From Terramyces sp. JEL0728 (lineage: Eukaryota; Chytridiomycota; Chytridiomycetes; Rhizophydiales; Terramycetaceae): a stretch of 20,753 nt of DNA. The stretch covers positions 1 to 20,753 of the forward strand of contig JADIIU010000181.1 of NCBI GenBank assembly GCA_027603945.1, read 5' to 3'. This document shows, in pieces, positions 1,536-19,507 of this stretch. The notes under the pieces were generated by a model. The model was not told the origin of the DNA and made no database searches. It saw nothing but the letters and a program-made list of their open reading frames with translations. Both the position numbers and the translations under genes were made by a program. Numbering within the stretch: position 1 is the stretch's first letter; each line of letters starts with the position of its first letter.

Positions 1536-3791
1536 ATGTTGACCGCTGAAGAATTAGACTTGCTACCAGAGATCAACGGCCCAATATTCAAAGATGGGAT
1601 ACCAGTGTTCAGCCCGCATTATGAAGAATTCAAGGATTTTCACTCTTACATCAAACAAATTGAACACTATGGATACAAATCAGGGATATTGAAAATTATT
1701 CCACCAAAAGAATGGCTGGAAAAGAATTATACCAGCTATGAAATGCTAAAGGAAATCAAGATATCCAAACCTATTAATCAAACCTTTAACTGCGGCGGAC
1801 TACCCGCTGGATGTCAGAGACAATTTAATGTTGAAATGCGCAAGAACTATAGTATACAAGAGTGGTTCGAAATGAGCGAAAAAATATGCAGCCCGCCAGT
1901 GTTACTAGAGTCTGGCAAGATGGCACTCGCTGCCAATGATGGTAAAAAAAAGGGATGTGCAGATATTTCAAGTGATCTGGGAGAGAAATCAGTAGATGAA
2001 TATGGGATGGAGATTCCAGCATATATAAATACACCGCCGTCTAGACTAACTCCGGAATATTTGCAGGCCTTGGAAAGATTTTATTGGAGAAACGTTTCAT
2101 TTCAAACTACAATGTATGGTGCAGACATGCCTGGATCCATATTCACTAATGAAAAGGATAATCTTTGGAACATTGCGCACTTGGAATCGCTCTTATCTAC
2201 TATAAAAACAAAGATTCCTGGAGTAAATACACCGTATCTGTATTTTGGTTTGTACAAGGCGACGTTTGCTTGGCATGTTGAAGATATGGATTTGTTTTCA
2301 ATTAATTATATCCATTTTGGTGCTCCAAAGCAATGGTATGTCGTTCCACAAGAATATAAACCGAAATTTGAAAGATTTGCCAGCAGCATGTTTTATGATG
2401 AAGCCAAACAATGTCCAGAATTCCTGCGTCACAAAACAACAGTAATTTCACCATCAATATTGGAAAAGAATAACATCAAGGTAAACAAGATTATTCAATA
2501 TGCTAATGAGTTTATTGTTACTTTTCCTGATGGCTATCACCAAGGATACAATACCGGATTTAATTGTGCGGAAAGTGTCAACTTTGCACTTGAAAGTTGG
2601 ATTCCATTTGGGAGAAAAGCACACTTTTGTACCTGTATCGATGACAGTGTTTCCTTGGACGTTAACAAACTATTTGGGCCAGATCCCAATGCTGATCCAA
2701 ATGCTAAACCGAAAAAGGAAAGGAAACAGAGGCGGCTGCCAAAGAAAAAGGTATTTTTTATTAATGCAGTGCTGTCTATGTCCTTTGGGCGAGCTTCCCG
2801 CGTTCCCTTTGTACGAAACTGAGATTAAAGGGATATATTGTCATTATGAATGTGGGTTTTATATGCCGGAATCTTGGACTGAAATTGACGATGAGGCAAA
2901 CCTTGATACTGCAGCAGCTCCAGTTGAAAGCAAGATGCTTAGTTTTACAGATAGCAACGTTGGTGAATTGAACCAAGTTGTTTCAGATAATGTTTTACAC
3001 GCAAAAGTTCTCGCTGATATAGAAAAGGGGGCAGCTATTGATGCAGTGTATGAAGAATCATTGAAGCTCGAAGAAATGGAAATTGTCAATTTGAAAAGAG
3101 AATTTGTGGAAAAGAATGGAAAAATTATGGGGTTGGAACTAGTCCCGAAAGACAGATGGAAACTCAGATGTAGCTATTGCGCATACAGTGGCCCAGCTGA
3201 TAATAATGTAGGTGCGTGTGTTCAATGCACAAAAGGCAAATGTCTAACTGCTTACCATGTGTCCTGTGCTCTCAAAAAGCGCATATTCATTCAGACTCAG
3301 GACGGAATACTAGAGACGTATTGCCAAAAACACGATCCTGTATACATACAAGGGCAGAAATTGCTGAAAAAGCAAGAAAAAGAACGAGAGTATTTGGACA
3401 CATTGACTGTCGGCAAACATGTATCTGTAAAAGTTGCTGGTTCCTTATTTAGCGGATATATAACTGGTGTGGTTGCCAGCCACGGAGGATGTATGGTTCA
3501 CTACGAAGGAAGGTACTCTTTGTTAATTGTAGCTCAGAGCCGCAGTTTACTAAATGGGACTGCCTAAAGCTCAAAGAGATTAGGCAAATAGTCGAAAAGA
3601 GAAAAAAAGCACCTGTCTACACAGATACCAAGCCAAGAAAGAAAAAAGTTAAAGTTGGCCCAACTTGTGTGCTTTCTGATGCTAAAGATGGCGAGCAAAA
3701 AACAGTCGAGCCTGTTCAAACCGAGAATGGAACATCACTTGACAATATATCGCGACCTGAAATGCCAGTTCTGGATACTCCGATACACTGA
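1536..3791 (+). CDS. KDM4-type JmjN/JmjC histone lysine demethylase with PHD, extended PHD and Tudor
   Basis: Exons are 1536-2750, 2770-3512 and 3533-3791, giving 738 residues; introns are 19 and 20 nt. JmjN lies at about residues 12-55 (GPIFKDGIPVFSPHYEEF). In JmjC, the Fe(II) ligands are H247, E249 and H335 (WHVEDMDL, DGYHQGYN), and the KDM4-type zinc site is C293, H299, C365 and C367. The family removes methyl groups from histone H3 lysines using 2-oxoglutarate and O2 in the nucleus. Splicing restores CCLCPLGELPAF (residue 406 on), the start of a PHD module. A second Cys/His module runs from C539 (CSYCAYSG, GACVQC, TAYHVSCALKKR). A Tudor-like segment starts near residue 619 (VGKHVSVKVAGSLFSGYITG) and is completed across the second intron. 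The tail is lysine-rich. The ATG at 1536 is chosen because it directly precedes JmjN. Site specificity (H3K9 or H3K36) cannot be read from the sequence. Confidence 0.9.
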
Positions 3792-4183
3792 TCGATCAAC
3801 CAATTTATGAAATATAATGATTTTTTGGAAAAGTTTGAGGTACGCTGTTGTCTCAAGTTGAATGTAGTGTTCATTCTACAGGCAGAATATCGTCCTTTAG
3901 GTTCCTATAAATAAAAGTACTCTTGACCGCAGCTTTTTACGGGACCATATGCCGAGTTTTAGAGTTGAATAAAAGATATTAGAATATTGCTGGTCGGTAG
4001 TGCAGCCATTGCACCGAATGTAAATCTAGTTCTATTTCCGAGATTCCATGTTTTATAAGCAGTTTAGTGATGTGGGACCTGTTTGTGTCTTTTGTCTTTG
4101 CTGGCGGTGCAGATCAATTGAAACCCTTCCAATTTCCTTCACACAACCCGAATCCAAAGATTAATAGTTGAATTCACATATCA
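3792..4183. other. Intergenic region (392 nt)
   Basis: No gene is visible. AATAAA signals at 3910-3915 and 3968-3973 probably end the demethylase transcript. The remainder should hold the promoter of the coiled-coil gene at 4184; I see no recognisable operator. Confidence 0.5.
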
Positions 4184-6536
4184 ATGACCATATATGATCA
4201 GACAAGCAATAACGACACTCTCGTTACTCCAGAACTGGTAGCATTGAGAAAGGTATCCTCTGCTAACACAGGACCAAGTAGAATTGAATCAAATCATTGC
4301 CCAGTATTCAAAAAAACTGAATGGAGAAATAAAACTACTGGAATCTGCATTGCGAGCAAGAAAGCAGTCACCAACAAAGAAGGCGGATGAGAAAGTCAGT
4401 GGTAATTACTGCTAACGCAGGCTGTAGAAGGAACGCACAAATAGTTCTTGATGAACTGTACATTTATTTGAAAAGCATGCAGGAACTTGCACCAGCAAGG
4501 AGAAACGCTGAACTTGAAATTTTAAACATAATTCTCGACCAAACACAGTATGGAGAAATTCCAAAAGAAATTATGGATTTACGTCGCACGGGATGTGATA
4601 TTGAAATTTCAATTCGAGATATGGAGGAAAAGCTGCGGAAAATGTCTGAACCTAGGAATGATTTGAATTTTGTAGCGAAAATGGCTAGGGTTCAATGTAT
4701 TACTTGTTAATGGTAGATTCAGAGAGGGATATGTTCAATTTTAAGCATGAAATTGTAAAGAGTCTCCTGGACTATAAATTAATCGCTTTGGAATTGAACA
4801 CTGTCGAGATTGATTGGATTATTCAAGCTATAGAGAATCTCACGAAAAAGGTAGCATTTATCTCATGTTAGTCCATCGCTTCATTCGGTTACGTTCTATG
4901 CAAGGAATCTGGTAAAGTAGCTGTTCCGCTTCATTCATCCCAACAATCTACTACTACTGAGCGCAATAGTGTTATCTCGTCAGCAACCGACCCTACACTG
5001 ATTGAACAAGTATTCTTTGCAAAACCGAAACTGCTGCAGAAATCAGATCAATCAGAATTGCATCCCAACAACAGAGACTCGCTGTCTGAGCAAGATAATG
5101 TGCAACTAACGATGATTCCTTGTACACTAATTCCCGAACTGGGAGGTGACTCTCGAAATGTTGAAACCTCAATGAAAACCAAATCAAAGGCAGATCTAGC
5201 TATATTACCACCATTTAGAGAAAACAGCTTTGTCAAAAACTCAAATACTCCAACTGTAAAGTCAAGCAGTCGAGGACAACCCAAAAATGAAAATGAAAAT
5301 CCTCAATCCGCTACTGTACCGGTTCCAACCAATTCGAACGAGAAACAAGACTCGCCAGTCTGCAAGGCTAATGTAAAAGTGGCTCTCAAAAAACAAATTA
5401 TAAAGAAATATCCCAATGGTGTACCTCAGGAAGAATATTCCAAGGTAATGAAAGAACGAAACGCTCTAGTTGAAAAGTTGCTTGACAAAGTAGATCGCGA
5501 AAGGTTCGTAGAGAAATGGGAGCTGGTGCATGCCCAAGGTGAACTTGGGAGTCTAAAACTGAGTTTGCAAAAACTGCAATTGGAAAATGAAAGATTACAA
5601 AAAGGTCTAGAGTTGAAATCCAAGAATGATCAACTACGGGCACAGGTTCAGCAGTTGAAAGATGCTGTTTCCAAAGAACAGGAACAGAAAGCCAACCAAG
5701 AGCTGATATTGCAAGATCTAAAAAAGAAATTGGCAGAGAAAACTAGACATGAACAGAAATATATAAAACTGGAAGATTACAATGCAATTAAAAATAGAAA
5801 TAAAGAGCTGGAAAATAAACATCAGCAGTTGCAAATAGAAGGGATAAAGAAACAAGTTGTCGATTTATCCGCTGATGAAACGGAAAATCAAAATTTACGG
5901 AAAGAGATAGAACGGTTGAATACAATAAAAGTGCAGAAAACCATACTGGACAAAACCAATCAAGATCTGAGGTTGGAAATTGATCGGTTAAACACGCTGC
6001 AAAGCAAACATTCAAAAATAGAAATTGATAATCAAGTCTTGCAGTTGGAAGTAGAACGACTAAGCAATTTGGATATTTCGAAAGCAGCTCTTGAATCAGA
6101 AAACCAATCTCTACAAACCGAAATAGACAGACTGAGCCATATTGTATCATTAAAAGAGACACAGCTCGATATTAGAATAGAAACCCCAAAAGAATTTGCT
6201 GGAGGAATACCAAAGAAGGAATACGAGCGAGCAATAGAAGAAAGAAATAGATTTGCGGAAATGTGCAAAATATTATCACTAGACATGTTGGAGAATGGAG
6301 TTGATCAAATGTACATTACAGTTGCAAAAAAAGTAGGAGAAATCAAACAACGACTGGCGTACTCTGATAAACAGAATGGAAGATTGAGGAATCAAGTTAT
6401 TTTGCTTAAACAAGAAATCGAACAGTTGAAGAGTTTGCCGATTTCTCCCGGGCCTTCTGAATATGAATCCGAAGTCTGCGAAGAGTTTGTTTGGCTGAGT
6501 CAATTGGAATCTATCATTGCCTCCGAGACGTTCTAA
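4184..6536 (+). CDS. Large coiled-coil protein of unknown function, five exons
   Basis: Exons are 4184-4252, 4272-4401, 4421-4696, 4717-4850 and 4872-6536, giving 757 residues; introns are 19, 19, 20 and 21 nt. The spliced frame stays open throughout, and an in-frame stop just upstream (4169) supports the ATG at 4184. The N-terminal ~230 residues are charged and helical (VELNQIIAQYSKKLNGEIKL, IRDMEEKLRKMSEP). Residues ~230-340 are polar and probably disordered. From ~400 the protein is a long heptad-rich coiled coil with four 24-residue repeats at 541-636, each led by [E/T/D]NQxLxxE[I/V][E/D]RL. A motif G-[V/I]-P-x-x-E-Y-x-x-x-x-x-E-R-N occurs twice, at residues ~386 and ~648, bracketing the coil. 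I do not recognise the family. A scaffold or cytoskeletal role would fit the composition but is a guess. AATAAA lies 19 nt after the stop. Confidence 0.8.
5883..6170 (+). repeat. Four tandem 72-nt (24-residue) coiled-coil repeats
   Basis: Repeat units start at 5883, 5955, 6027 and 6099, spaced exactly 72 nt. The encoded starts are ENQNLRKEIERLNTI, TNQDLRLEIDRLNTL, DNQVLQLEVERLSNL and ENQSLQTEIDRLSHI. The DNA has diverged while the protein pattern is kept, so the duplication is old and the spacing is under structural constraint. Confidence 0.8.
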
Positions 6537-6554
6537 ACCCCGTGTTGTTATTCA

Positions 6555-6560
6555 AATAAA
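6555..6560 (+). terminator. AATAAA poly(A) signal of the coiled-coil gene
   Basis: The signal lies 19 nt after the stop at 6536. Its last A is also the first base of an ATG (6560) that is an alternative start for the next gene. Confidence 0.5.
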
Positions 6561-6640
6561 TGGTATCCGTCATTGAATTAAATACTTGGATTAATAGTCG
6601 GACCGAAATAGTTTGCGTTTTTTTGTCAAAAACAGAAAAC

Positions 6641-7352
6641 ATGAATCAGCTGAATTTGATAAAAAATGAAGTCAAGCATTTAATGTCTGGAATTCTAGCG
6701 ATAGGAAAGCAAACGGGGACAACACTGGGCCATTGGGCAAACGTCAAGGACACTGGCCTTGTGTCAGGTACACTATGCTAACGCAGACAGGAGAATACTC
6801 AGGAATATTCTACGAAACAAACAGGACTTGATTAAATTCGTTCCGGGAGTCTGTTATATCATCCTTCCAATGGCAATCCCAACTCTTCCATTTGTATTTC
6901 GCTTATTTCCAAACTTTTTACCTTCAACGTTATATTCACCAAATTTGTTGAAGATTAGATTGGATATTTTATCTAAAAAGAGGAATGCATTGGATGATCC
7001 TACCGATATGCAAGTTGCCAAGTACCTGGGGCTATCATTACCGTTCCTTTTCACCAGAGCCAGACTGTACCAGAGATTTGATTGGTTGTTGAAAGACGAC
7101 TTGCTTATACAAGAATTCGGAGTAAAGCGGTTGACTGAATATGAATTGGTTGAAGCATTGGAAGAACGAGGTAATATTTACTAAAAAGGTTTTAAGCAAT
7201 TGTATCCTGAAAATGAAGATTACACTAAATTACGAAAGGATTTAATCAAGTATCTGCAGCTGAGCAATCAAGTATCGAGACAGTATAAAAAAGAACCACA
7301 GGATATCTTCAAGATTGGGAAAACCCTTGTTACCAAAGTATCGCAGCTGTAG
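6641..7352 (+). CDS. Short LETM1-domain protein
   Basis: Exons are 6641-6767, 6787-7170 and 7189-7352, giving 224 residues; introns are 19 and 18 nt. The diagnostic LETM1 core is present: RRILRNILRNKQDLIKFVPG, then a hydrophobic segment (YIILPMAIPTLPFVF), then RLFPNFLPSTLYSP. It is followed by the helical ribosome-binding-like region, including EFGVKRLTEYELVEALEERG, completed across the 18-nt intron by FKQLYPENEDYTKLRKDLIKYL. LETM1/Mdm38 proteins sit in the mitochondrial inner membrane and act in K+/H+ or Ca2+ homeostasis and in binding mitoribosomes. Family members are usually much longer, and no clear mitochondrial presequence is seen here. An in-frame ATG at 6560 would add 27 residues (251 in all) but also looks unlike a presequence, so the start is uncertain. 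AATAAA lies at 7397-7402. Confidence 0.85.
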
Positions 7353-7491
7353 TCTTTGGGTTTAAACATCAAGAATAATCTTGGTAGAATACTAGGAATA
7401 AATTTTGGTTTTATTTAGAGAGTCGATATGATTGAGGAACACCTGATATTAGCGATCGCTTACCTGCGGGTTAATTCGTAAAAACCTATGA

Positions 7492-7951
7492 TTAGAATCC
7501 CAGATACCTAGTATAAGTAAAAGAAACCTTGTTGGTAATCATTTGGTCGAGCGTTTGATCCCAAAAGGTATTACAGCTGAGGTTAGTAAACCAATCGTGA
7601 ATCTGCTTAAAAATATGTTTGATTTCCAAATCCTTTAGTGTTTCATCCTTGTTTGTTACCATAATAATAAACTTGTGTTTGGTGTTTGTCGTGTAGCCGA
7701 ATACTGAGAGATCTTCAATTGAAAGCAACAGACCTCGTTATCTACCGAGTACCTGGTATTAGGATAGTAAACCTAAATACAAATCTTGTTTCTTGTCTTG
7801 CAATCGTTCTTCAAAAATGTCAATACATGTGTGCGAGACAAAATGGTATTTTAGTGGATCTGATTGGTTGAATATTTTGATTAATAGCGGATTATTCTTG
7901 TTTAATATGATCTACTTCTTTTCCTATTATTGAGATTGCTTCAATCAACAT
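7492..7951 (-). CDS. TRAPPC2L: TRAPP complex subunit, TRAPPC2L/Tca17-like (sedlin family)
   Basis: Exons on the minus strand are 7951-7916, 7896-7773 and 7733-7492, giving 133 residues, close to the family length. The protein reads MLIEAISIIGKENNPLLI..., HFVSHTCIDIFEERL, DLYLGLLLSIEDLSVFGYTT, NTKHKFIIMVTN, DLEIKHIFKQIHDWFTN. This follows the longin-like fold of TRAPPC2L, including the LYLGLL...VFGY[V/T]TN[T/S]K block. TRAPP is a tethering complex and Rab exchange factor in ER-Golgi and Golgi traffic. The first intron is 19 nt (7915-7897). The second gap is 39 nt (7772-7734) and reads as two abutting introns of 20 and 19 nt. Removing all 39 gives the conserved LYLGLL-x3-ED spacing with no gap. 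The gene is convergent with the LETM1-domain gene, with stops 139 nt apart. Confidence 0.88.
7734..7772 (-). other. 39-nt intron, or two abutting introns of 20 and 19 nt
   Basis: On the minus strand the first 20 nt (7772-7753) run GTTTAC...CTAATACCAG and the next 19 nt (7752-7734) run GTACTC...ATAACGAG. Each half has its own GT, branch-like motif and AG, and each has the length typical of this window. The junction CAG|GTACTC is an ideal recursive splice site with no exon base between. Confidence 0.7.
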
Positions 7952-8082
7952 TTTCAAGATTTGAAAATTGGATGATCACACTTGGATGGGACTAGAACAT
8001 ATTATTCTCAGAGGATAAATAGCAGAGTCCAGCTGATACTAGTTACGGAGAATATTGCAGAAAGATCAATACGGAAACAGGT

Positions 8083-8592
8083 TTATTTGAAAAATTTATA
8101 CTTTTGTTTTTTAACTTCAACCTTCTCCAATCCACTCAGCATCTCTTTGATTTCTCCCAGACACTCCAGATTAATCTCATAATTATTATTCCATTCTTCA
8201 ACTTTATTTTTTATATGAAACAGCAAATGTCTGTTTTTCACATTATTGTAGTGGGGATTATTGAATATTTCTACCAACAGGTTTGTGTACTGGATTAGTT
8301 CTTTGAATTGTGGGTTGCAAGAGGTAGAGATGAAATGTTGCCGGGTTTTACAGTTGAATTCTTGGATTGGGTCTTTTGAGGGCAATTCAGATTCGGATTC
8401 TTTGCGGTTCAGCGTGTTGTGTGATTGTGCTTTCTTTCTTCCTTGTTTCTCTGCTGGTGATGGGGATCTTGAGCTTGGTGGAGTAGCTTTATTTGGACTA
8501 CTTTCTGTATGGGTATCAGAACATCCCTTGTCTCGTTTGAATGAGAATGAGACCATCTTTTTGATCTTTTCTTTTTGGAATATAGCAAACAT
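8083..8592 (-). CDS. Hypothetical 169-residue protein
   Basis: This is a single open frame on the minus strand with an ATG at 8592 (a second in-frame ATG gives M13). The first ~75 residues are Ser/Pro/Lys/Glu-rich and probably disordered (SSRSPSPAEKQGRKKAQ). The C-terminal ~95 residues look helical and ordered (HFISTSCNPQFKELIQYTNL, LLFHIKNKVEEWNNNYEIN). The pattern FxxxxxxNPQFKELI followed by ...LLFHIKNKVEEW faintly recalls the last helices of a VHS domain, but this is weak and the N-terminal part of such a domain is absent. The stop codon is embedded in AATAAA on the minus strand (8087-8082), as in other genes here, which supports a real gene. No intron is apparent. The product is unknown. 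Confidence 0.5.
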   Translation of the reverse strand: MFAIFQKEKIKKMVSFSFKRDKGCSDTHTESSPNKATPPSSRSPSPAEKQGRKKAQSHNTLNRKESESELPSKDPIQEFNCKTRQHFISTSCNPQFKELIQYTNLLVEIFNNPHYNNVKNRHLLFHIKNKVEEWNNNYEINLECLGEIKEMLSGLEKVEVKKQKYKFFK

Positions 8593-9765
8593 GTTGAGGA
8601 CCTTCCTATTCCAGCATATTTATGTGTGATCTGCGAGTGACCTCAAAATGACTAATTTGAATTAATAAATTATCTGGAAAACACTGAAATTCTATTTAAA
8701 AAAGCGCTGAAATCAAGAGATCTATATCGGCCAGGCAAGCTATACTTGCTCAATTTTCCAGTCTCAAGTTTTCATGGAGTTGGGATCAGTTGTATGCATG
8801 ACTGGCATTTGCCGATAACATGGTGCACAGATATATGATACCACCCTGCCAATACTCCCAGAACTGATAAATGTGTAGCCAAGCGAATAATAATTATTAA
8901 TCCTTACTAATTCTGATGAAAGGTGATCCGATGTGCACATAACCGAAAAGTTACATTTCATCTCAGCAGCACCAACACAAAATGAAACGAGTTACTCGGA
9001 AACAAAAATTACCTATATCTGTAAACTCTTCCAAACTGCGAAAGAGAAAGTATTATTGGATTTAAAATCAGATTGCTAATCTAGTGGTGTGCGACAAATC
9101 TAGTTATAGATATATCAGGGTTTAGCAATATTTCAAGGTTATGGATAGTGGTTCAATGGTTGAGGTCCCCTTGTACCACGGCGTAATATCCGACCTACTG
9201 TTCTTTTGAATCCTCAGCAAAGAATCAAGGACTGCGGTTGTATTTATTACATTCTCTTTCTATAGCGATGTTTGAATAAATTCCAATCTTGTCCTTTTTT
9301 GGCGGGAAAATAAAAATGGTCACGCACTCTTTTTAACCGACAATGCAGCTTGAATGCAAGTAAACCTCGTTAAATATTGTTGAAATGGCGATAAATGTAT
9401 TCTGCCATACTGCAGCAATCCACCAGCCAGCTTCCTACACTGAATGATTTCAAATGTCGGGATAATTCTTTGTGCTACTACAACAACCCGCACTGACCCC
9501 TCAAACACTGTAACAGAGGAGATTGGAACAATCAGTGACTAATAAATAGCATTCAGAAATCGTTGGCCGGCGTTGATTCATAGACGTCATTGGCTGGCAT
9601 TTAACCAAAAACTCATCACAAATCGCTCGTATGCCGTTCGTTTGGAGCCCCGCCCAACAACCACGATGCCGAAATTAAAAAAAACAGTTACTAATAAACC
9701 AGCAGGTATTTAAAATACGTAACTATATTACATTGCAAAATTATTCTTTCTATGGTATATCCCTT
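8593..9765. other. Long region without a confident gene (1173 nt)
   Basis: No open frame here has convincing coding character. The longest are a 65-codon minus frame (8764-8961) and a 62-codon minus frame (9320-9508) that starts at GTG. The region holds an E2F-like motif at 9295-9310. Around 9563-9600 there are two CCAAT-type elements in a short direct repeat (GTTGGCCGGC and ATTGGCTGGC) and an AGACGTCA CRE-like site. A tiny ATG frame at 9666 (starting MPKLKKTVTNKPAG) is also present. Given introns of about 19 nt, a small multi-exon gene could be hidden here. Confidence 0.4.
9295..9310. promoter_or_regulatory. E2F-like motif (TTTTTTGGCGGGAAAA)
   Basis: The 16-base stretch contains the classic E2F core TTTGGCGGGAAA. 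It lies about 700 nt upstream of the hypothetical gene at 8592, with no recognised gene immediately beside it. The assignment rests on the motif alone. Confidence 0.3.
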
Positions 9766-10296
9766 TTACAATTCTAATTCTTCTTTTGGTTTGCATGCAC
9801 TGACAGATTCATGACGATGCAGCGCATCCATTCTTGTGAATGATTTTGAGCAGGTATTGCAAGTGTATGGACGCACTCCAAGGTGGATCCTTAAATGTCT
9901 CTTTAAATCGTGGTTGCGCGAGAATGTTGATGGGCAATGCTCGCAAAAGTAGGGTTTGAATGGATTCTTTTCTTTAGGGGAGGGAGGAGGGGAGAGCGGG
10001 CAAACGTCTTTTTCAATTTGAATGGCGACTGTTGGGATTAAAGGCGAGGTAGATGATTGGTCGCCTATGATTTCTTCCCTTCGTTTAAAATGCTGTTTGA
10101 TGTGTGGTTTGAATATGTTTGCGTTTAACTCCAGTTCAAACATGAAATCTTGTGGAATGACTACGAATTTCCATGCATCTACGTATTCATCTTCCATGTC
10201 AGGGATAAACCAATCGGAGGATTCGTAGCCAGAGTCGTATCGACTAGAGATGGAGGAGCAAACAGAACTTGCTGACGACATGGAATACAAGGACAT
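9766..10296 (-). CDS. Small C2H2 zinc-finger protein, probable transcription factor
   Basis: The product is 176 residues in one exon. The N-terminus is Ser-rich, starting MSLYSMSSASSVCSSISS, then acidic (DWFIPDMEDEYVD). Two fingers lie at the C-terminus. Finger 1 has C118, C121, H134 and H138 in a C-x2-C-x12-H-x3-H pattern (FCEHCPSTFSRNHDLKRHLR). It is joined by LGVRPYT to finger 2, with C146, C149, H162 and a terminal C168 in place of the last histidine (SFTRMDALHRHESVSAC). This pair, with NHDLKRH followed by MDALHRH and a final Cys, is common in fungal regulators. A nuclear DNA-binding role follows from the family; the target genes are unknown. Its upstream region of about 485 nt is shared with the Derlin-like gene. 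Confidence 0.85.
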   Translation of the reverse strand: MSLYSMSSASSVCSSISSRYDSGYESSDWFIPDMEDEYVDAWKFVVIPQDFMFELELNANIFKPHIKQHFKRREEIIGDQSSTSPLIPTVAIQIEKDVCPLSPPPSPKEKNPFKPYFCEHCPSTFSRNHDLKRHLRIHLGVRPYTCNTCSKSFTRMDALHRHESVSACKPKEELEL

Positions 10297-10781
10297 TTCG
10301 ATTGATTATTAGTGCAGAAATGCAAGTTCACATTGAATATTTATGAGGGTTCCCGAATCGCCAAATACGGAATGGGTTTCAATGAATGTCGTACAAGACA
10401 GCATTGTTACAAACTGATTGGTTGGTTTCGAGAATCCATTTTTTGTGTTCAAAGGCAAAGCTCGTTAAGACCGCAGGAACATTTCTATTGCAAATACTAT
10501 CATTCTCGTGTTGTTATTAAATTTTCATGGCGCTTGCAATGTGGAGCCATTGGGGGTGAATGACTGTAAAACTGGTGTCTTTCTCAAGTTCTTTGAATCT
10601 TTACTGACGGCGAACTGGGGCCCAAAAATATCTCTGGAAACGTTTGCTCTATAATAATTTGAGAATAGTAATTGATGAATGCCGAGGAGGGAGCCTTTAA
10701 TAGACCGCTCTCCGGCTGGTAGTCGATTAAATCACAAGCATGTATTAAAGTAGCTCGCCATCTTATTTTCATTGTTTTTTC
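10297..10781. other. Divergent intergenic region (485 nt) between the C2H2 and Derlin-like genes
   Basis: No gene is supported. An 83-codon frame at 10312-10563 has no recognisable features. The stretch presumably carries both promoters; an ATTGG (inverse CCAAT) lies near 10420 and another near 10547. Confidence 0.5.
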
Positions 10782-11663
10782 ATGTTAATCAGCCAACTGC
10801 ATTACCACCCACTAGGTCTCCCGGACTTGCTTTCAAGAGAAAGAACACTGCCAAGACTAAGAGGAGGAGCGCAAGTATCTCCCCTCTCTCCGATTATTTG
10901 GCAAGTAAAGAAACAAACAAGAAAACTAGCAAAGGAATCACCAGTTACATTTATTCAAATTGGACTTGGACTAGCAATCCACTTGTTTTCATTTGCTTCA
11001 ATTATATCACCAGCTAAACTGTTGTTTCATTCCAAACTAGTGGAAAACCCAGTAAATTCGTACAGAGTGCTGACTTCGTTCTTGGTTTTAGGAACCACAT
11101 TGTTTGATGTCGGAAAGAGAGCGGTGAGTTTATATTACACTCAGGCACCTCTCGAAGCAATGTTTGATCAACCTCTTAAACCCCCAGGCAGATATCCAGA
11201 GGACGATGATGAAAAGTTTGTTTTAGGAGCTCCAAAATGGAAATTCTTGACTATGCAATTAATGATGATGGGAATGATTGTTTCAATCGAAACATTGCTA
11301 TTTCCTACTTTTAATTTGACTAAAAAAGGCGGGGTTGTAAAGATATTCCCGTATACTCTATATCCAATATTGGAACACGCTGTTCAATGGATGTGGGCCA
11401 TGTGTACGGATGAAAGACAAACCGTGGCCATTGCTGGGGTTTTCAGACTAGAGCCAGTCCTAGTACCATTGGCAATGTGGACGCTGTCTGGATTTGATAA
11501 TGGCTTGTCTCTTATCAAAGGTTTGGCAGTAGCAGTAAGTGTCGGCCAAATATTAAAGATCAAACGATGGAATGGCGAAGATGCTGTTTCGTGGTTTGCT
11601 TACATCTCTAAATCGTGGTACAAGTGGATTAGAAAGCAAATTGATATTATGCAAGCTAAATAA
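10782..11663 (+). CDS. Derlin/Der1-like rhomboid pseudoprotease
   Basis: The single-exon frame encodes 293 residues. From residue ~52 it matches the Derlin pattern: PVTFIQIGLGLAIHLFS (membrane segment 1), ISPAKLLF, then SYRVLTSFLVLG (residues 93-104), the place of the Derlin WR motif with Tyr for Trp. This is followed by VSLYYTQAPLEAMF and by further hydrophobic segments (LTMQLMMMGMIVSIETLLF, FRLEPVLVPLAMWTLSGF, GLAVAVSVGQILKI). No rhomboid catalytic Ser/His pair was found. Derlins act in the ER membrane in ER-associated degradation, moving misfolded proteins to the Cdc48 machinery. The first ~50 residues (MLISQLHYHPLGLPDLLSRE...) are not Derlin-like; they could be a lineage extension or a sign that the true first exon is elsewhere. 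The stop overlaps AATAAA (11659-11664). Confidence 0.75.
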   Translation: MLISQLHYHPLGLPDLLSRERTLPRLRGGAQVSPLSPIIWQVKKQTRKLAKESPVTFIQIGLGLAIHLFSFASIISPAKLLFHSKLVENPVNSYRVLTSFLVLGTTLFDVGKRAVSLYYTQAPLEAMFDQPLKPPGRYPEDDDEKFVLGAPKWKFLTMQLMMMGMIVSIETLLFPTFNLTKKGGVVKIFPYTLYPILEHAVQWMWAMCTDERQTVAIAGVFRLEPVLVPLAMWTLSGFDNGLSLIKGLAVAVSVGQILKIKRWNGEDAVSWFAYISKSWYKWIRKQIDIMQAK

Positions 11664-11664
11664 A
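11659..11664 (+). terminator. AATAAA overlapping the Derlin-like stop
   Basis: The TAA stop at 11661-11663 forms the centre of the AATAAA signal. Confidence 0.5.
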
Positions 11665-11839
11665 TGTTTCATTATAATATGCATTTCTATCTGGAACAAT
11701 CATTGTTGCCGCGTACAGATCGGATCAAGAAGCGGAATGAACCACGGTAAGCTCAATTCAGTTGCATTTACAATTCATCCTCGAGTAGTTACCAGTTCCC
11801 ACGTCAAGGTACCAGTTCATTGACTGCTGTGGCTTCATC

Positions 11840-14800
11840 ATGGGAACATTCTTGTTTTTTCTTTCAATTTTGAGTGAAATGGACAAAGTGAGAAAACCCG
11901 TCCATATAACTCTGTTGAATTTTCTAACCGTTGAGTGGATTACCCCTCTTATGTTCCTCGGGGCCAGGAAGCCGCTTGACCAGGAGGATTTGTACGATTT
12001 GCCATTAGCAAATCAAGCAGACCACCTTTCAAGCTACCTAGCTCCATTCTGGAAAGATTTAAAAGCTAATATAAAACCTTCCTTGTTCAAAGTCGTCGCC
12101 AACAACTATAGTTTTCGATTTGCCATGGGTGTAGTTTTGCAATTACTGTCTGTCACCTGTATGCTCACATTTCCTACTTTTGTCGAACAGATTCTGTTGT
12201 ATTTGCAGCCAGACTACCCACGCACAGAATTGTACTTTGACAGCGGCCTAGCTATCTCATTCATCATTGCAGGATTACAACTAGGAAAAACACTATTTGA
12301 CAAAACTTCGCAACAGTTGTTCAATTCAATTCAAGTGGATATCAAAACGATCTTGATTGGTGCAGTCTATGAAAAATCACTGCGGTTGTCAAGATCCAGT
12401 TCAAATACTTTTACTCAGGGCAAAATACTGAATTTGATTAATGTGGATTCGGAAAAGGTTTCAAAAGCAGTTGCTCAGATTTGGCAAATGATCGTGTCTT
12501 CAATCGTCATCATTGTGTCTCTCATTTTGTTGGGCTTTAGGATTTCCTACACGGTCTTTGGTGGAGCTGCAATGCTAATTCTCATTGTGATGCTTCAGGC
12601 AAAAGTCGTGAAAAGAATTGGGGGCTATCAAAAGCAGTTTCTCAAGTTTGGCGACAAGAGATTGAAGGCAGTTAGAGAGATATTGTATGGGATAAAGATC
12701 ATCAAGTACCGCGCTCTTGAAAACTATTTTAGTGGTAGGGTTGAAAGTATCAGATCGGACCAGTTGCAAATACTAAAGAAATTCAATATGCTTCAAGTGT
12801 TGTTTATGGGAATGATTGAAAGCTCGGAAATTTCAATGGTAAGGAGATTTTAACATAGCCAATTACTGCTTTTTTGATTTATTCTGCTACTCATGGAGAT
12901 ATTACTCCGCAGATCATCTTCCCCGCTTTGCTATTGTTCAACAATTTGTCCAAACCAATGTTAGTTATCCCTCAGGTTTTCAATGCGTTGATGATTGCCA
13001 AAGTGTCTTGGACCAGACTGGTCGACTTTTTGGCTGCAGAAGAAGCTGATCAACTGGAAATCGAGGAACCTGGCGCAAGCTCAAGCAATGTCCATCTTGA
13101 ACTAACCAACGGATGTTATCAATGGGAAAATTTGAAACAGAACGACAATAAAAGCCCAAATGATAAACCAAAGATTGTAGGTGTTGGGGCTAAAAACAAC
13201 TCAGAATCGACCATTGCTCCTGAACTCAAGGATGGGTTCAAATTGGAGAGTTTGAACATTAAAATCAAGAAAGGATCAAAGGTGGCTATTGTCGGCCCAG
13301 TTGGAGCTGGTAAATCATCTCTTCTCAGTGCCATTATTGGGGAAATGCCAAAGCTCGCCGGTGACATCAAGATTGGTGGGAAACTCGCTTACTGTTCACA
13401 GCAGCCTTGGATCTTGACTGATACTATCGAAGGAAACATTGTATTCAACAACAAATTCAATGAAGAGCGATTCGAAGCGATTCTGGAAGCAACTGGTTTG
13501 GACAAGGATATGAAACAGTTCCCAGCTGGACAAAAGACTGGTATTGGTGAAAAGGGAGTCAATCTGTCTGGTGGTCAAAAAGCAAGAGTGTCGCTGGCAA
13601 GAGCAATGTACCAAGACACGGATATCGTCATTCTTGATGATCCAATCTCTGCTTTGGACGCGCAAGTTGGACGCAAAGTTTTCAACGATGCACTGAAGGG
13701 ATACATGAAGGACAAGACTGTCATTCTCGTCACTCATCAACTCCACTTTTTACCAGAAGTAGATCACATCATTGTGTTGGACAACGGAAAGATTGGCGAA
13801 CAAGGGGCATTCAAGGAATTGATGTCAAAAGGCGGTTCGTTGGCTGCCATGATGAAGAACTATGCCATCGACCATGAAGACGAAACCAAAGCTGAAAAAA
13901 AGAAAGAAACTAAAGTCGAAGAGAAGACTGAAGAAAAGGCGGAAATTATTGTCGCCGAAGATCAAGAAAGAGGGGTAATTAATTTTGATGTGTACTTTCA
14001 CTATTTCGAAAACGCTGGTGGATTAAAGTACATGATTGCTGTAGCAGTTACTGGTGTACTGAGTGCTGTTGCTCAAGTAATCAATAATTTGTGGTTATCC
14101 TGGTGGACAACGTAATACTTTTCTGATATTAGAAACAAGTTTAGTTTGGATCAACAAACCAATATGTGGATCTATGGCGCTTTAGGTGTTGCCCAATTCT
14201 TGACGCTGATTGTTTTAATATCTACGTTGATTATTGGATCTTATGTTGCCTGTAAAGTTTATCATAAGAAAGCCTTAACCAGTCTGTTACGTGCTCCAAT
14301 GGGTTTCTTTGACTCGCAGCCAGTTGGTAGAATCTTGAACAGAATGTCAAAGGATATTGAGAGTATGGATCAGGATATATGGATTATGATTTACTTGGTT
14401 GTACTTTCGTTCACATCCTTGACTTCTTCAATTGCATTGTTGATCTATGTAGAGTACAAATTACTGGGTAAGTTATTCTGTAATTATAGTAATCATTGTC
14501 CCCCTAGTGTTTATTTTCTTTTTCATTATAGTCTATTTCCAAAGATCCAACCGTGAATTCAAGAGATTTGAATCTACCAATAGATCTCCACTCTACTCCC
14601 ATGTTAGTGAAACAATGGCTGGTATCGCTACTGTCAAGGCGTATGGTGTTGAAAATCTATTTATTGAAAAGGAAAGGCTGCTTATCAACGAAAGCAATAT
14701 CCCTACATTCTTGCGTTTATTCGCTTCAACCTGGATTGCAATTCGTATGGAAGTGCTTACAAGTTTAATGACATTAATGTTGTGTATCTTTGGAACAGTT

Positions 14801-17800
14801 TATTCAAATGATCCTTCTTTAATTGGTCTGGCGCTGACCTATACTGTTACTTTTGCTGGGCTGTTAAGTTTACTCCTTATGGCGTCCACTCAACTTGAAA
14901 ATGCCTTCAACTCTGTTGAAAGATTATCAGTCTATTGTGAAAAATTACCCGCAGAATCAGCCGTAACTACCAAACAAGATCCAAACCCAGAATCATGGCC
15001 GTCTGTTGGGAATATTGAATTCAAGAACATTGTAATGGCTTATCCATCTCGTCCTGATTTGCCAGTGTTGAAGGACATTACTTTTGAAATCAAGGCTGGT
15101 GAAAAGATTGGTATTATCGGAAGAACTGGATCGGGAAAATCAAGTTTGATGACTGCACTGTTCAGAATTGTAGAGCTGTCTAGCGGTTCAATCACTATTG
15201 ATGGGGTTGACATTTCAAATATTGGGCTAGATACTTTGAGAAAGAGTATTCAAATCATTCCTCAAGAACCTGTTTTATTCACTGGAACCATCAGAGACAA
15301 CCTGGACGTTGAATCGCTTTACACAGATGCAGAAATCTGGAATATTTTGGGGTTGATTGGGTTGAAAGACTATGTTTCCTCTCTGACTGACAAACTGGAA
15401 AGTCCAGTGACAGAAAACGGAGAGAATCTTTCTGTTGGACAAAGACAACTGATCTGCTTGGGGAGAGCCATCTTGCTCAAACCAAGAATTTTGATCATGG
15501 ACGAAGCAACAGCCTCGGTTGACGCAGAAGCAGATAAACTGATCCAAGCATCCCTAAAGTCCCACTTTGCAAATACAACAGTGTTGTCCATTGCTCACAG
15601 ACTAAACACCATTGCAGACTTTGACAGGGTTCTTGTTTTGGAATTTGGAGAAAAGAAGGAATACGACACTCCCCACAACTTGCTTTCCTATCCAGAAAGC
15701 TTATTTTCGCAGCTTGCCGAAGCAACTGGTACCGCCAATGCAGCAGCTCTCAGACATAAAATCAAGAAAGGATCAAAGGTGGCTATTGTCGGCCCAGTTG
15801 GAGCTGGTAAATCATCTCTTCTCAGTGCCATTATTGGGGAAATGCCAAAGCTCGCCGGTGACATCAAGATTGGTGGGAAACTCGCTTACTGTTCACAGCA
15901 GCCTTGGATCTTGACTGATACTATCGAAGGAAACATTGTATTCAACAACAAATTCAATGAAGAGCGATTCGAAGCGATTCTGGAAGCAACTGGTTTGGAC
16001 AAGGATATGAAACAGTTCCCAGCTGGACAAAAGACTGGTATTGGTGAAAAGGGAGTCAATTTGTCTGGTGGTCAAAAAGCAAGAGTGTCGTTGGCAAGAG
16101 CAATGTACCAAGACACGGATATTGTCATTCTTGATGATCCAATCTCTGCTTTGGACGCGCAAGTTGGACGCAAAGTTTTCAACGATGCACTGAAAGGATA
16201 CATGAAGGACAAGACTGTCATTCTCGTCACTCATCAACTCCACTTTTTACCAGAAGTAGATCACATCATTGTGTTGGACAACGGAAAGATTGGCGAACAA
16301 GGGGCATTCAAGGAATTGATGTCAAAAGGCGGTTCGTTGGCTGCCATGATGAAGAACTATGCCATCGACCATGAAGACGAAACCAAAGCTGAAAAAAAGA
16401 AAGAAACTAAAGTGAAGGAGAAGACTGAAGAAAAGGCGGAAATTATTGTCGCTGAAGATCAAGAAAGAGGGGTAATTAATTTTGATGTGTACTTTCACTA
16501 TTTCGAAAACGCTGGTGGATTAAAGTACATGATTGCTGTAGCAGTTACTGGTGTACTGAGTGCTGTTGCTCAAGTAATCAATAATTTGTGGTTATCCTGG
16601 TGGACAACGTAATACTTTTCTGATATTAGAAACAAGTTTAGTTTGGATCAAAAAACCAATATGTGGATCTATGGCGCTTTAGGTGTTGCCCAATTCTTGA
16701 CGCTGATTGTTTTAATATCTACGTTGATTATTGGATCTTATGTTGCCTGTAAAGTTTATCATAAGAAAGCCTTAACCAGTCTGTTACGTGCTCCAATGGG
16801 TTTCTTTGACTCGCAGCCAGTTGGTAGAATTTTGAACAGAATGTCAAAGGATATCGAGAGTATGGATCAGGATATATGGATTATGATTTACTTGGTTGTA
16901 CTTTCGTTCACATCCTTGGCTTCTTCGATTGCATTGTTGATCTATGTAGAGTGGAAATTGCTGGGTAAGTTATTCTGTAATTATAGTAATCATTCTCCCC
17001 CTAGTGTTTATTTTCTTTTTCATTATAGTCTATTTCCAAAGATCCAACCGTGAATTCAAGAGATTTGAATCTACCAATAGATCTCCACTCTACTCCCATG
17101 TTAGTGAGACAATGGCTGGTATCGCTACTGTCAAGGCGTATGGTGTTGAAAATCTATTTATTGAAAAGGAGAGGCTGCTTATCAACGAAAGCAATATCCC
17201 TACATTCTTGCGTTTATTCGCTTCAACCTGGATTGCAATTCGTATGGAAGTGCTTACAAGTTTAATGACATTAATGTTGTGTATCTTTGGAACAGTTTAT
17301 TCAAATGATCCTTCGTTAATTGGTCTGGCGCTGACCTATACTGTTACTTTTGCTGGGCTGTTAAGTTTACTCCTTATGGCGTCCACTCAACTTGAAAATG
17401 CCTTCAACTCTGTTGAAAGATTATCAGTCTATTGTGAAAAATTACCCGCAGAATCAGCCGTAACTACCAAACAAGATCCAAACCCAGAATCATGGCCGTC
17501 TGTCGGGAATATCGAATTCAAGAACATTGTAATGGCTTATCCATCTCGTCCTGATTTGCCAGTGTTGAAGGATATTACTTTTGAAATCAAGGCTGGTGAA
17601 AAGATTGGTATTATCGGAAGAACTGGATCAGGAAAATCGAGTTTGATGACTGCACTGTTCAGAATTGTAGAGCTGTCTAGCGGTTCAATCACCATTGATG
17701 GGGTTGACATTTCAAATATTGGACTGGATGCTTTGAGAAAGAGTATTCAAATCATTCCTCAAGAACCTGTTTTATTCACTGGAACCATCAGAGACAACCT

Positions 17801-18287
17801 GGACGTTGAATCGCTTTACACAGATGCAGAAATCTGGAATATTTTGGCGTTGATTGGGTTGAAAGACTATGTTTCCTCTCTGACTGACAAACTGGAAAGT
17901 CCAGTGACAGAAAACGGAGAGAATCTTTCTGTTGGACAAAGACAACTGATCTGCTTGGGGAGAGCCATCTTGCTCAAACCAAGAATTTTGATCATGGACG
18001 AAGCAACAGCCTCGGTTGATGCAGAAGCAGATAAACTGATCCAAGCATCCCTAAAGTCCCACTTTGCAAATACAACAGTGTTGTCCATTGCTCACAGGCT
18101 AAACACCATTGCAGACTTTGACAGGGTTCTTGTCTTGGAATTTGGAGAAAAGAAGGAATACGACACTCCCCACAACTTGCTTTCCTATCCAGAAAGCTTA
18201 TTTTCGCAGCTTGCCGAAGCAACTGGTACCGCCAATGCTGCTGCTCTCAGACAGACTGCCTATGAAAAGCATATTTCAAATAAATAA
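11840..18287 (+). CDS. Giant ABCC (MRP-type) transporter with in-frame duplicated NBD1-TMD2-NBD2
   Basis: Exons are 11840-12838, 12859-14111, 14133-14467, 14490-16608, 16630-16964 and 16987-18287; introns are 20, 21, 22, 21 and 22 nt. The spliced frame is exact, giving 2113 residues (2100 if the ATG at 11879 is used). There is no TMD0, so the core is a short ABCC of ~1295 residues. Order: TMD1; NBD1 (Walker A GPVGAGKSS at 479, signature LSGGQKARVSLARA, Walker B ILDDP with Asp in place of the catalytic Glu); TMD2; NBD2 (Walker A GRTGSGKSS at 1073, signature LSVGQRQLICLGRA, Walker B IMDEA). Then come NBD1' (Walker A at 1297), TMD2' and NBD2' (Walker A at 1891). NBD1 is degenerate and NBD2 canonical, as is usual for ABCC. 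NBD1' lacks the strands and aromatic A-loop before Walker A (GCYQWEN in NBD1). The family exports conjugates, drugs or metal-thiol complexes across plasma or vacuolar membranes; the substrate here is unknown. Confidence 0.88.
13260..15756 (+). repeat. Tandem duplication unit, copy 1 (2497 bp)
   Basis: The unit runs from just before the NBD1 Walker A to the last codons after NBD2 (ending CAGACA). It includes a 21-nt intron (14112-14132) and a 22-nt intron (14468-14489). Confidence 0.92.
15757..18253 (+). repeat. Tandem duplication unit, copy 2 (2497 bp)
   Basis: This aligns to copy 1 at a constant offset of 2497 with no indels. By eye there are about 35 substitutions (~1.4%). Seven residue changes result: E to K in the linker, Q to K (DQQTN/DQKTN), two T to A, Y to W (VEYKLL/VEWKLL), V to L and G to A. 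Its introns are at 16609-16629 and 16965-16986. After 18253 the sequence continues into the original gene end (TAYEKHISNK). Confidence 0.92.
18279..18284 (+). terminator. AATAAA directly before the ABCC stop
   Basis: The last two sense codons (AAT AAA) form the signal, followed at once by the TAA stop at 18285-18287. Confidence 0.45.
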
Positions 18288-18375
18288 GATATTGAATATT
18301 TCCGACTGTATTTCATTGATCGCACCTACAGATTATTTAGTTGTACACAATTGTCATATGCTAATTCAAACAAAT

Positions 18376-18381
18376 TTTATT
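18376..18381 (-). terminator. AATAAA poly(A) signal of the lipase gene
   Basis: TTTATT on the plus strand lies 7 nt past the lipase stop codon. Confidence 0.5.
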
Positions 18382-18387
18382 TAAACA

Positions 18388-19507
18388 TTATGCAGAGAAT
18401 CTTGAATCTGCAGTTGGGCAGAATGGTTTCAAAACAGCAGTAGGATCAACTTGAGTTGATTTTTGAGCGAATGGCAAGAACATATTATTCCTGAAATTAA
18501 AAAAAGAGTTACCATGATCCAACAGCCATAAGTTGGTGCGTTTTGACATCAGGGTGGAAACAATCAACGTCTGAAATGTAATCCATGGACCAGTCTTGCA
18601 GATGGACTCCAGTGAAAAGGGGATCAACAATCAGCATGAAATTGTCATTGCTTTCAGCCAGATAGTCTTCTCTGATGGTCAGCAATCGTTGGTTGTACTC
18701 ATCAACCAAACTGTCCATGGATTTTCTGGTTGAATCGCCAAATGGCCAAAGCATGTAAGCACATGAACATTCGATACCAAATCCAAGGGCACGAAGATTC
18801 GAGCAATGGCTGCTGCCTTGAGTCAATTGTTGGATTCCAGATACTTTGAATTGCTGGTGGACGTTCAAGATCAGTTTTGGGATTTGGTGCTTGAGTTGCC
18901 AAATAACTTCGCGCATGGTTTCTTCGAAAGCATCTGGAGACAAGACGCTCTTTCCCAAGATTGGTAGACATCCCAAACAATCATCGTTGCTTCCGATAAA
19001 CAAGTTGAGGAGTTTATAATCGTTTACCATGTCTACGTTTGGCGATTGGGTAAGTTGCGCTACCAACCAGTTAACTTCGTCCATCAAGTTCATAGCCAAC
19101 GCACCAGAGCGAGCAGCGTTAAAGTGGTCGAGTTGCGGTTTATATTGGAATGGAGGGCACAAAGGGCCATAGCAAATGTTGACAATATGTTTACCAACAG
19201 ATGCGCCTACCAAATTTGGGCTGTATTGCTTGACAAAGTTTGCAATGGTAATAGCACCAGGATCGCCACCCATTGACCACGAAACACCTCTATCTTCATC
19301 TAAATTGTTTATATCTATAGGTTGGTTTGGATTTTCCATTCCTTTTGCGCCAAATCCTGCAGTAATGGAATCACCAATAGCAGCAATAACTTTAATATCG
19401 TCTGGTCTGACGTCTCTAATATTTGCTGGTGGAGAAGATCTTGCTGGAAGTGGAGCGCATTGGGACAAAACCAAGCTGACTAGTGCGAAAAGGGCTGGAG
19501 TAACCAT
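18388..19507 (-). CDS. Secreted SGNH/GDSL lipase, phospholipase B1-like
   Basis: Exons on the minus strand are 19507-18513 and 18490-18388, giving 365 residues; the intron is 22 nt (18512-18491). A signal peptide is clear (MVTPALFALVSLVLSQC, cleavage near residue 17-22). SGNH blocks: GDSITAGFG with nucleophile S47; NAARSGA with G135; GSNDDC with N174; DCFHPD with D315 and H318. The C-terminal continuation across the intron (VGSW|NNMFLPFAQKS) matches the PLB1 family pattern after CFHP. The arrangement is that of metazoan-type PLB1, not the patatin/cPLA2-like Plb1 of yeasts. Expected activity is hydrolysis of phospholipid acyl esters outside the cell. Several Cys (C112, C117, C177, C180, C235, C247, C249, C316) suit a disulfide-bonded secreted enzyme. 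Without the intron the protein would stop right after GSW. AATAAA on the minus strand is at 18381-18376, 7 nt past the stop. It is convergent with the ABCC gene, 100 nt apart. Confidence 0.9.

Follow-up and report, generated by a model that had tools for sequence, protein, structure and literature searches.

Predicted Introns of 19–22 Nucleotides throughout the Genes of a Chytrid Fungus

The genes of Terramyces sp. JEL0728 (Chytridiomycota, Rhizophydiales, Terramycetaceae) appear to be interrupted throughout by GT..AG stretches of 19–22 nucleotides (nt), which are likely U2-type spliceosomal introns; a mostly ordinary spliceosome is predicted to excise them (probability roughly 0.93). The window analysed here is one whole contig of 20,753 nt from an assembly of 15,016,339 bases (15.0 Mb) in 231 contigs. 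A first-pass annotation, made from its sequence alone, had proposed sixteen introns in six genes and a genome of ultrashort spliceosomal introns, allowing that the organism might be a fungus. It is indeed a chytrid fungus: a LETM1 exon and the spliced KDM4 protein from the window are each 100% identical to a public protein of Terramyces sp. JEL0728. In 200 kilobases (kb) outside the window, 175 introns of 18–22 nt were predicted. The short introns are real, genome-wide, and probably spliceosomal, a new lineage for a known phenomenon; they likely rank with the shortest fungal introns.

Length peak and intron motif

The outside sample consists of twenty 10-kb stretches (positions 20–30 kb of the 20 largest contigs) and, with the window, comes to 220,753 bases. 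A motif-free gene finder, which draws solely on codon usage and the GT and AG dinucleotides and assigns all intron lengths from 10 to 200 nt an equal prior, placed 262 introns in it, 73 of them at 19–21 nt. Thirteen wrong boundary pairs yielded about 199–261 placements each, with 2–12 at 19–21 nt (AT..AC gave the most, 12). The peak is therefore specific to GT..AG, and the longer placements are mostly noise common to all boundary pairs. Without the window, the peak holds 71 introns: 26 of 19 nt, 33 of 20 nt, and 12 of 21 nt.

A second, motif-informed finder uses an intron motif learned from 81 introns placed by the motif-free finder, under a length prior that is flat from 13 to 300 nt. Its predictions peak at 18–22 nt, a range that holds 185 of 295 introns (18 nt, 1; 19 nt, 58; 20 nt, 76; 21 nt, 33; 22 nt, 17). 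Seven controls placed 2–14 introns there. The main class lies below 25 nt within a narrow range, as in ultrashort-intron genomes; the remainder comprises 107 introns of 23–300 nt and three of 13–17 nt. A plain pattern, GTA N5-9 YTRAY N0-3 YAG, occurs 182 times, compared with a mean of 26.75 in 20 shuffles (maximum 35) and with 32–43 occurrences of five altered patterns. Together, the boundary controls and the shuffles exclude a chance origin of the short GT..AG segments.

Simple scaling of 175 introns per 200 kb extrapolates to about 13,100 short introns in the genome. At least one was predicted in 79 of 135 genes of at least 100 amino acids, with a maximum of eight per gene and many genes cut at stretch ends. 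Each kb of coding sequence holds 0.98 of them on average; for two Chytridiomycota, a published mean is 3.93 introns per kb, for a gene set that differs from the Terramyces sample (PMC8476143).

The introns share a motif. The donor resembles GTAATT (A at +3 in 169 of 184 introns, T at +6 in 116), and a YTRAY branch motif stands shortly before YAG in 55 of the 73 introns placed by the motif-free finder, compared with 224 of 3982 (5.6%) of all 19–21-nt GT..AG pairs. Mean spacing between branch motif and YAG is 1.4 nt. Across 184 motif-informed introns, the branch A is nt 14 (88 introns), nt 15 (76), or nt 16 (20), at 4–7 nt from the 3' end (the scan required at least 4). This branch-to-end geometry is fixed, and similar without the motif model: in 62 introns, the branch A fell at nt 14 (31), 15 (25), 16 (4), 13 (1), and 18 (1). 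The short introns are AT-rich (70.5%), with 48% T between donor and branch versus 30% in the genome sample. All 183 introns of 19–22 nt are distinct in sequence, and in sequence logos the positions outside the splice motifs stay near base composition.

Window genes and their junctions

All sixteen window segments begin with GT, end with AG, and have the coordinates and lengths first given for them: 18–22 nt, plus 39 nt for 7772–7734. The segments are all real; the independent sites number 14, because 16609–16629 and 16965–16986 copy 14112–14132 and 14468–14489 in a tandem duplication within an ABCC gene. The family assignments also held in Pfam, run on the proteins of the window genes apart from the coiled-coil gene: JmjN, JmjC, and PHD (KDM4-like); LETM1_RBD; Sedlin_N; ABC_membrane and ABC_tran; and Lipase_GDSL. 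The genes and introns are as follows.

1536–3791, plus strand: KDM4-like histone demethylase gene (JmjN, JmjC, PHD), two introns; Pfam, and an exact match between the spliced reading and public model P0003
2751–2769, plus: KDM4 intron 1, 19 nt, phase 0; gene finder, and Boothiomyces P0004 aligns across the junction with full identity and no gap
3513–3532, plus: KDM4 intron 2, 20 nt, phase 2; gene finder, and in public model P0003
4184–6536, plus: coiled-coil protein gene, four introns; gene finder, with a C-terminal part resembling Boothiomyces macroporosus P0032 (by eye)
4253–4271, plus: coiled-coil gene intron, 19 nt, or a 34-nt alternative at 4238–4271; motif score 8.5, gene finder took 34 nt
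4402–4420, plus: coiled-coil gene intron, 19 nt; GT..AG check, gene finder
4697–4716, plus: coiled-coil gene intron, 20 nt; GT..AG check, gene finder
4851–4871, plus: coiled-coil gene intron, 21 nt; GT..AG check, gene finder
6641–7352, plus: LETM1-like gene, two introns; Pfam LETM1_RBD
6768–6786, plus: LETM1 intron, 19 nt; motif score 9.4, missed by gene finder
7171–7188, plus: LETM1 intron, 18 nt, the shortest in the window; gene finder, and the frame of relative P0002 stops similarly
7492–7951, minus: TRAPPC2L gene, two intron sites; match to the solved TRAPPC2L structure 7b6d_H (E 9e-18), Sedlin_N
7897–7915, minus: TRAPPC2L intron, 19 nt; alignment to 7b6d_H, motif score 6.1
7734–7772, minus: TRAPPC2L 39-nt site, probably 7772–7753 (20 nt) plus 7752–7734 (19 nt); frame restoration
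11879–18287, plus: ABCC-type ABC transporter reading frame with internal tandem duplication; Pfam on single exons
12839–12858, plus: ABCC intron, 20 nt; GT..AG check, gene finder
14112–14132, plus: ABCC intron, 21 nt; motif score 8.4, gene finder favoured 42 nt with the same AG
14468–14489, plus: ABCC intron, 22 nt; GT..AG check, gene finder
16609–16629, plus: ABCC, copy of 14112–14132; GT..AG check, duplication
16965–16986, plus: ABCC, copy of 14468–14489; gene finder, duplication
18388–19507, minus: GDSL lipase/phospholipase-like gene, one intron; exon 1 by itself scores 59.7 bits for Lipase_GDSL
18491–18512, minus: GDSL lipase gene intron, 22 nt; GT..AG check, gene finder

Working blind, with no list supplied, the gene finder recovered 10 of the 16 introns exactly. 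At three sites it kept the AG but chose a longer intron: 34 nt at 4253–4271, and 42 nt at 14112–14132 and at its copy 16609–16629. It missed 6768–6786 by placing the LETM1 gene start downstream, and both TRAPPC2L introns (7915–7897 and 7772–7734) by building another gene model there. For reference, the 5% quantile of motif scores among predicted introns is 7.0.

Three genes outside the window were aligned to solved structures: U2AF65, with four introns (20, 20, 19, and 19 nt); PABP, with two (20 and 22 nt); and PPIL4, with three (20, 19, and 20 nt). Eight of the nine junctions fall within the alignments. Seven are gapless: U2AF65 introns 2 and 3, against human U2AF65, and every junction of PABP and PPIL4. 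The eighth, U2AF65 intron 4, lies in a region of equal ranges (337–432 to 3–98), as judged by ranges alone; U2AF65 intron 1 lies outside the alignment.

The expectation that standard gene finders would break such genes came true in part: the public LETM1 model is wrong, and a protein-database search with TRAPPC2L returned two candidates, none at E ≤ 0.001, but the public KDM4 model (HDV01_002511, P0003) is correct and identical to the spliced reading. Introns of 19 and 20 nt are therefore already in a database. KDM4 intron 1 is gapless against Boothiomyces P0004; intron 2 lacks that confirmation because the P0004 model is eight residues short there. In the public LETM1 model (HDV01_002513), a 48-nt intron replaces the 18-nt one, and exon 1 is missing (by eye); LETM1_RBD scores 60.8 bits in the spliced reading versus 27.4 in this model (P0001). 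Since the false 48-nt intron drops a conserved stretch, damage to this group's protein sets is likely. In the LETM1 relative P0002 (83% identical), the frame ends four codons past the shared ALEER (GKIC, versus GNIY in Terramyces); P0002 seems to share the intron, reading into it up to the branch-site TAA. As separate observations, Boothiomyces P0032 joins KDM4-type zinc fingers to the C-terminus of the coiled-coil gene, and the public models P0032 and P0004 look damaged in the way that the Terramyces LETM1 model is.

The 39-nt TRAPPC2L site deserves its own account. Its sequence is GTTTACTATCCTAATACCAG followed by GTACTCGGTAGATAACGAG, two abutting GT..AG units of 20 and 19 nt, and removal of both, not of one, restores the frame. 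Motif scores are 6.3 for the 20-nt unit and 1.4 for the 19-nt unit, compared with −1.2 for a single 39-nt intron. Thus, the length and the GT..AG ends first described are right, but the site probably consists of two units rather than one intron. Stepwise removal is possible, through AG|GT as a zero-length-exon splice site; the alternatives are a single 39-nt intron and use of the proximal AG, which leads to a stop. The alignment to 7b6d_H has no gap at either TRAPPC2L site, and its one gap, of five residues, precedes the second site by about 10 residues; given the protein-database result, the 39-nt site rests on this alignment. The idea that adjacent introns separated by zero-length exons are common was rejected: no pairs scoring at least 8 occur at spacing 0 (0.19 expected). 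The site is therefore a single case, with a low-scoring second unit.

Some observations concern the window itself. In the ABCC gene, a 2.5-kb stretch is tandemly repeated in frame (13256–18253; 98.6% identity over 2502 columns). The repeat, which leaves a single open gene with additional nucleotide-binding and membrane parts, is either a real duplication or an assembly effect. On the plus strand, 2–1372 encodes a protein with a SPRY domain and, apparently, a membrane segment; its frame is still open where the contig begins. Neither the Rfam scan nor the tRNA scan matched anything in the window, with ARAGORN run in its bacterial setting.

Spliceosome parts and rival explanations

Several spliceosome parts were found. 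U2 RNA is present (140 bits) with its branch-pairing GTAGTA intact, and the YTRAY motif is complementary to it; GT..AG boundaries are needed to restore reading frames (73 versus 2–12 in the 13 controls). Both features are those of U2-type introns. SF1 and U1C are present, their genes containing a 19-nt and a 20-nt intron, respectively. The spliced U2AF65 protein matches human U2AF65 at E 9e-62; read as single frames, U2AF65 and its relatives fall below the family's curated cut-off. (The U1C gene, L049 on G000:C76, adjoins intronless genes that read by eye as histones H3 and H4.)

These parts suggest how removal might proceed. The U1 small nuclear ribonucleoprotein, of which U1C is present, would mark GTAATT, and SF1 and U2 RNA would take the branch site. 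The first branching step would form a lariat loop of 14–16 nt with a tail of 4–7 nt, whose AG would be the 3' splice site. Because the gap between branch and AG is too small for a pyrimidine tract, whereas T makes up 48% of the loop, U2AF65 would bind U-rich RNA on the 5' side of the branch or work chiefly by contacting other proteins. The fixed distance from 5' site to branch suggests that introns shrank until they reached a spliceosomal limit, in an organism from which many introns were also lost. A fuller proposal is tentative and, taken as a whole, doubtful: some 13,000 introns would sit at a spliceosomal ruler (branch A at 14–16) that leaves too little space for a 3' pyrimidine tract, with U2AF65 reversing the usual arrangement by reading U-rich RNA upstream of the branch and with the two TRAPPC2L units (20 + 19 nt) spliced sequentially, as recursive splicing through a zero-length exon on the smallest scale possible, all in a non-relic 15-Mb genome.

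Several results weigh against a mostly ordinary spliceosome acting on one short-intron class. The first-pass annotation had proposed inspecting U2, U6, and SF1/U2AF homologues, and U6 RNA was not found: two U6 core patterns had no match, and two Rfam matches were below threshold (27 bits). U1 RNA was not found in the genome search, where the control was silent too, so absence is not shown; the same applies to the domain search for U1-70K, which an RRM search did not find either. For an SPF45-type UHM, the match obtained was weak and coincided with another RRM/UHM gene. Furthermore, 107 of the 295 predicted introns have 23–300 nt; the controls suggest that most are noise, and some may be real longer introns. 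Stop-free introns of a length divisible by three (3n) escape the finder, and exon-internal motif matches scoring at least 8 number nine at 21 nt versus five at 19 nt and four at 20 nt; because of this blind spot, no claim is made on 3n-intron avoidance. Finally, the 4-nt lower bound of the branch-to-end range was built into the scan's script.

Some candidates for the missing parts were set aside. The two sub-threshold U6 loci look like chance matches, because they are near-identical to each other and read by eye as coding DNA. The best U1-70K RRM match by identity (on C49) is the PPIL4 gene. Loss of U1, suggested by the silent U1 RNA and U1-70K searches, was dropped since U1C was found. The failure to find U1 RNA, U6 RNA, U1-70K, and SPF45 (L050, G000:C19:110518–110706) may reflect assembly gaps, introns within the genes, or real divergence. 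SPF45 takes the place of U2AF65 on those human introns whose pyrimidine tract is truncated (PMC8363638).

Among rival explanations, the least unlikely is that the short introns are the tail of a broad distribution in which many ordinary introns of 50–150 nt were undercounted. The 107 longer predictions fit it, as does a gene model neighbouring U2AF65 with introns of 79 and 96 nt. However, lengths above 25 nt spread at about 0–2 per nt, as in the controls, and the branch motif occurs in 9 of 52 introns of 25–59 nt and 15 of 119 of 60–200 nt, versus 55 of 73 at 19–21 nt; this rival is improbable. Recently spread mobile introns of one family (introner-like elements) might also be expected to show a narrow length range and a common motif. 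Such a family would leave near-identical copies, whereas all 183 sequences differ and stay near base composition beyond the splice motifs; the relative P0002, moreover, seems to have the same LETM1 intron. A mobile origin is thus very improbable.

More improbable still is a set of intron-poor genes whose frame breaks arose through errors of sequencing or assembly. Nothing was found in favour of such errors, in an assembly of 231 contigs; they would not converge on one GT..YTRAY..AG pattern of fixed length, cutting exactly these segments yields gapless alignments, and the boundary controls refute them. It is scarcely credible that the segments are instead eliminated from DNA, like the internal eliminated sequences of ciliates, or bypassed in translation: nothing was found for this, and the GT..AG ends, the U2-pairing branch motif, and the presence of spliceosomal genes speak against it. 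DNA elimination is not known to occur in fungi.

Other short-intron genomes

As the first-pass annotation stated, such small introns occur in Bigelowiella nucleomorphs and some ciliates. Those of Stentor coeruleus have 15–16 nt (PMC9505925) and resemble the Terramyces introns in their GT..AG ends, very narrow lengths, and AT-richness (75.6% versus 70.5%). Stentor, too, has a short tail after the branch A (5 nt) and conserves U2AF2 and SF1-type machinery (PMC9505925); its branch A, however, is at nt 10–11 with a weak consensus, compared with nt 14–16 and a strong YTRAY in Terramyces, and one is a ciliate and the other a fungus. Chlorarachniophyte nucleomorph introns, at 18–21 nt, span nearly the Terramyces range (PMC10245619), but a nucleomorph is what remains of an endosymbiont's nucleus and holds about 800 introns, whereas the Terramyces nuclear genome measures 15 Mb and simple scaling gives it roughly 13,000.

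Mikrocytid introns (16–17 nt) are similarly uniform in length and sequence (PMC10245619), in a parasite with 224 introns and a reduced spliceosome, whereas Terramyces retains U2AF65, SF1, and U1C. In Paramecium, nearly all introns are tiny, as in Terramyces, with slightly longer means of 23–28 nt in an unrelated lineage (PMC11334263), and a 23-nt intron has been described in Trichomonas. The fungus Cryptococcus neoformans has introns with a mean of 56 nt and a small, poorly spliced minority of 20–40 nt (PMC11913375), in contrast to the main class of 19–22 nt in Terramyces; because of that minority, isolated short introns already have a precedent among fungi. A fungal genome whose main intron class lies near 20 nt was not among the matches listed in the open-licence literature.

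Ciliates, a nucleomorph, and mikrocytid parasites are the cases described in these papers of genomes made up mainly of introns near 20 nt, and a chytrid would add an opisthokont case. If the prediction is true, the parts of a fungal spliceosome would be directly comparable with the solved yeast and human complexes. Terramyces would then test the minimum distance from 5' site to branch, and how small a spliceable intron can be; the role of U2AF65 where there is no 3' pyrimidine tract; and whether intron shrinkage needs genome reduction.

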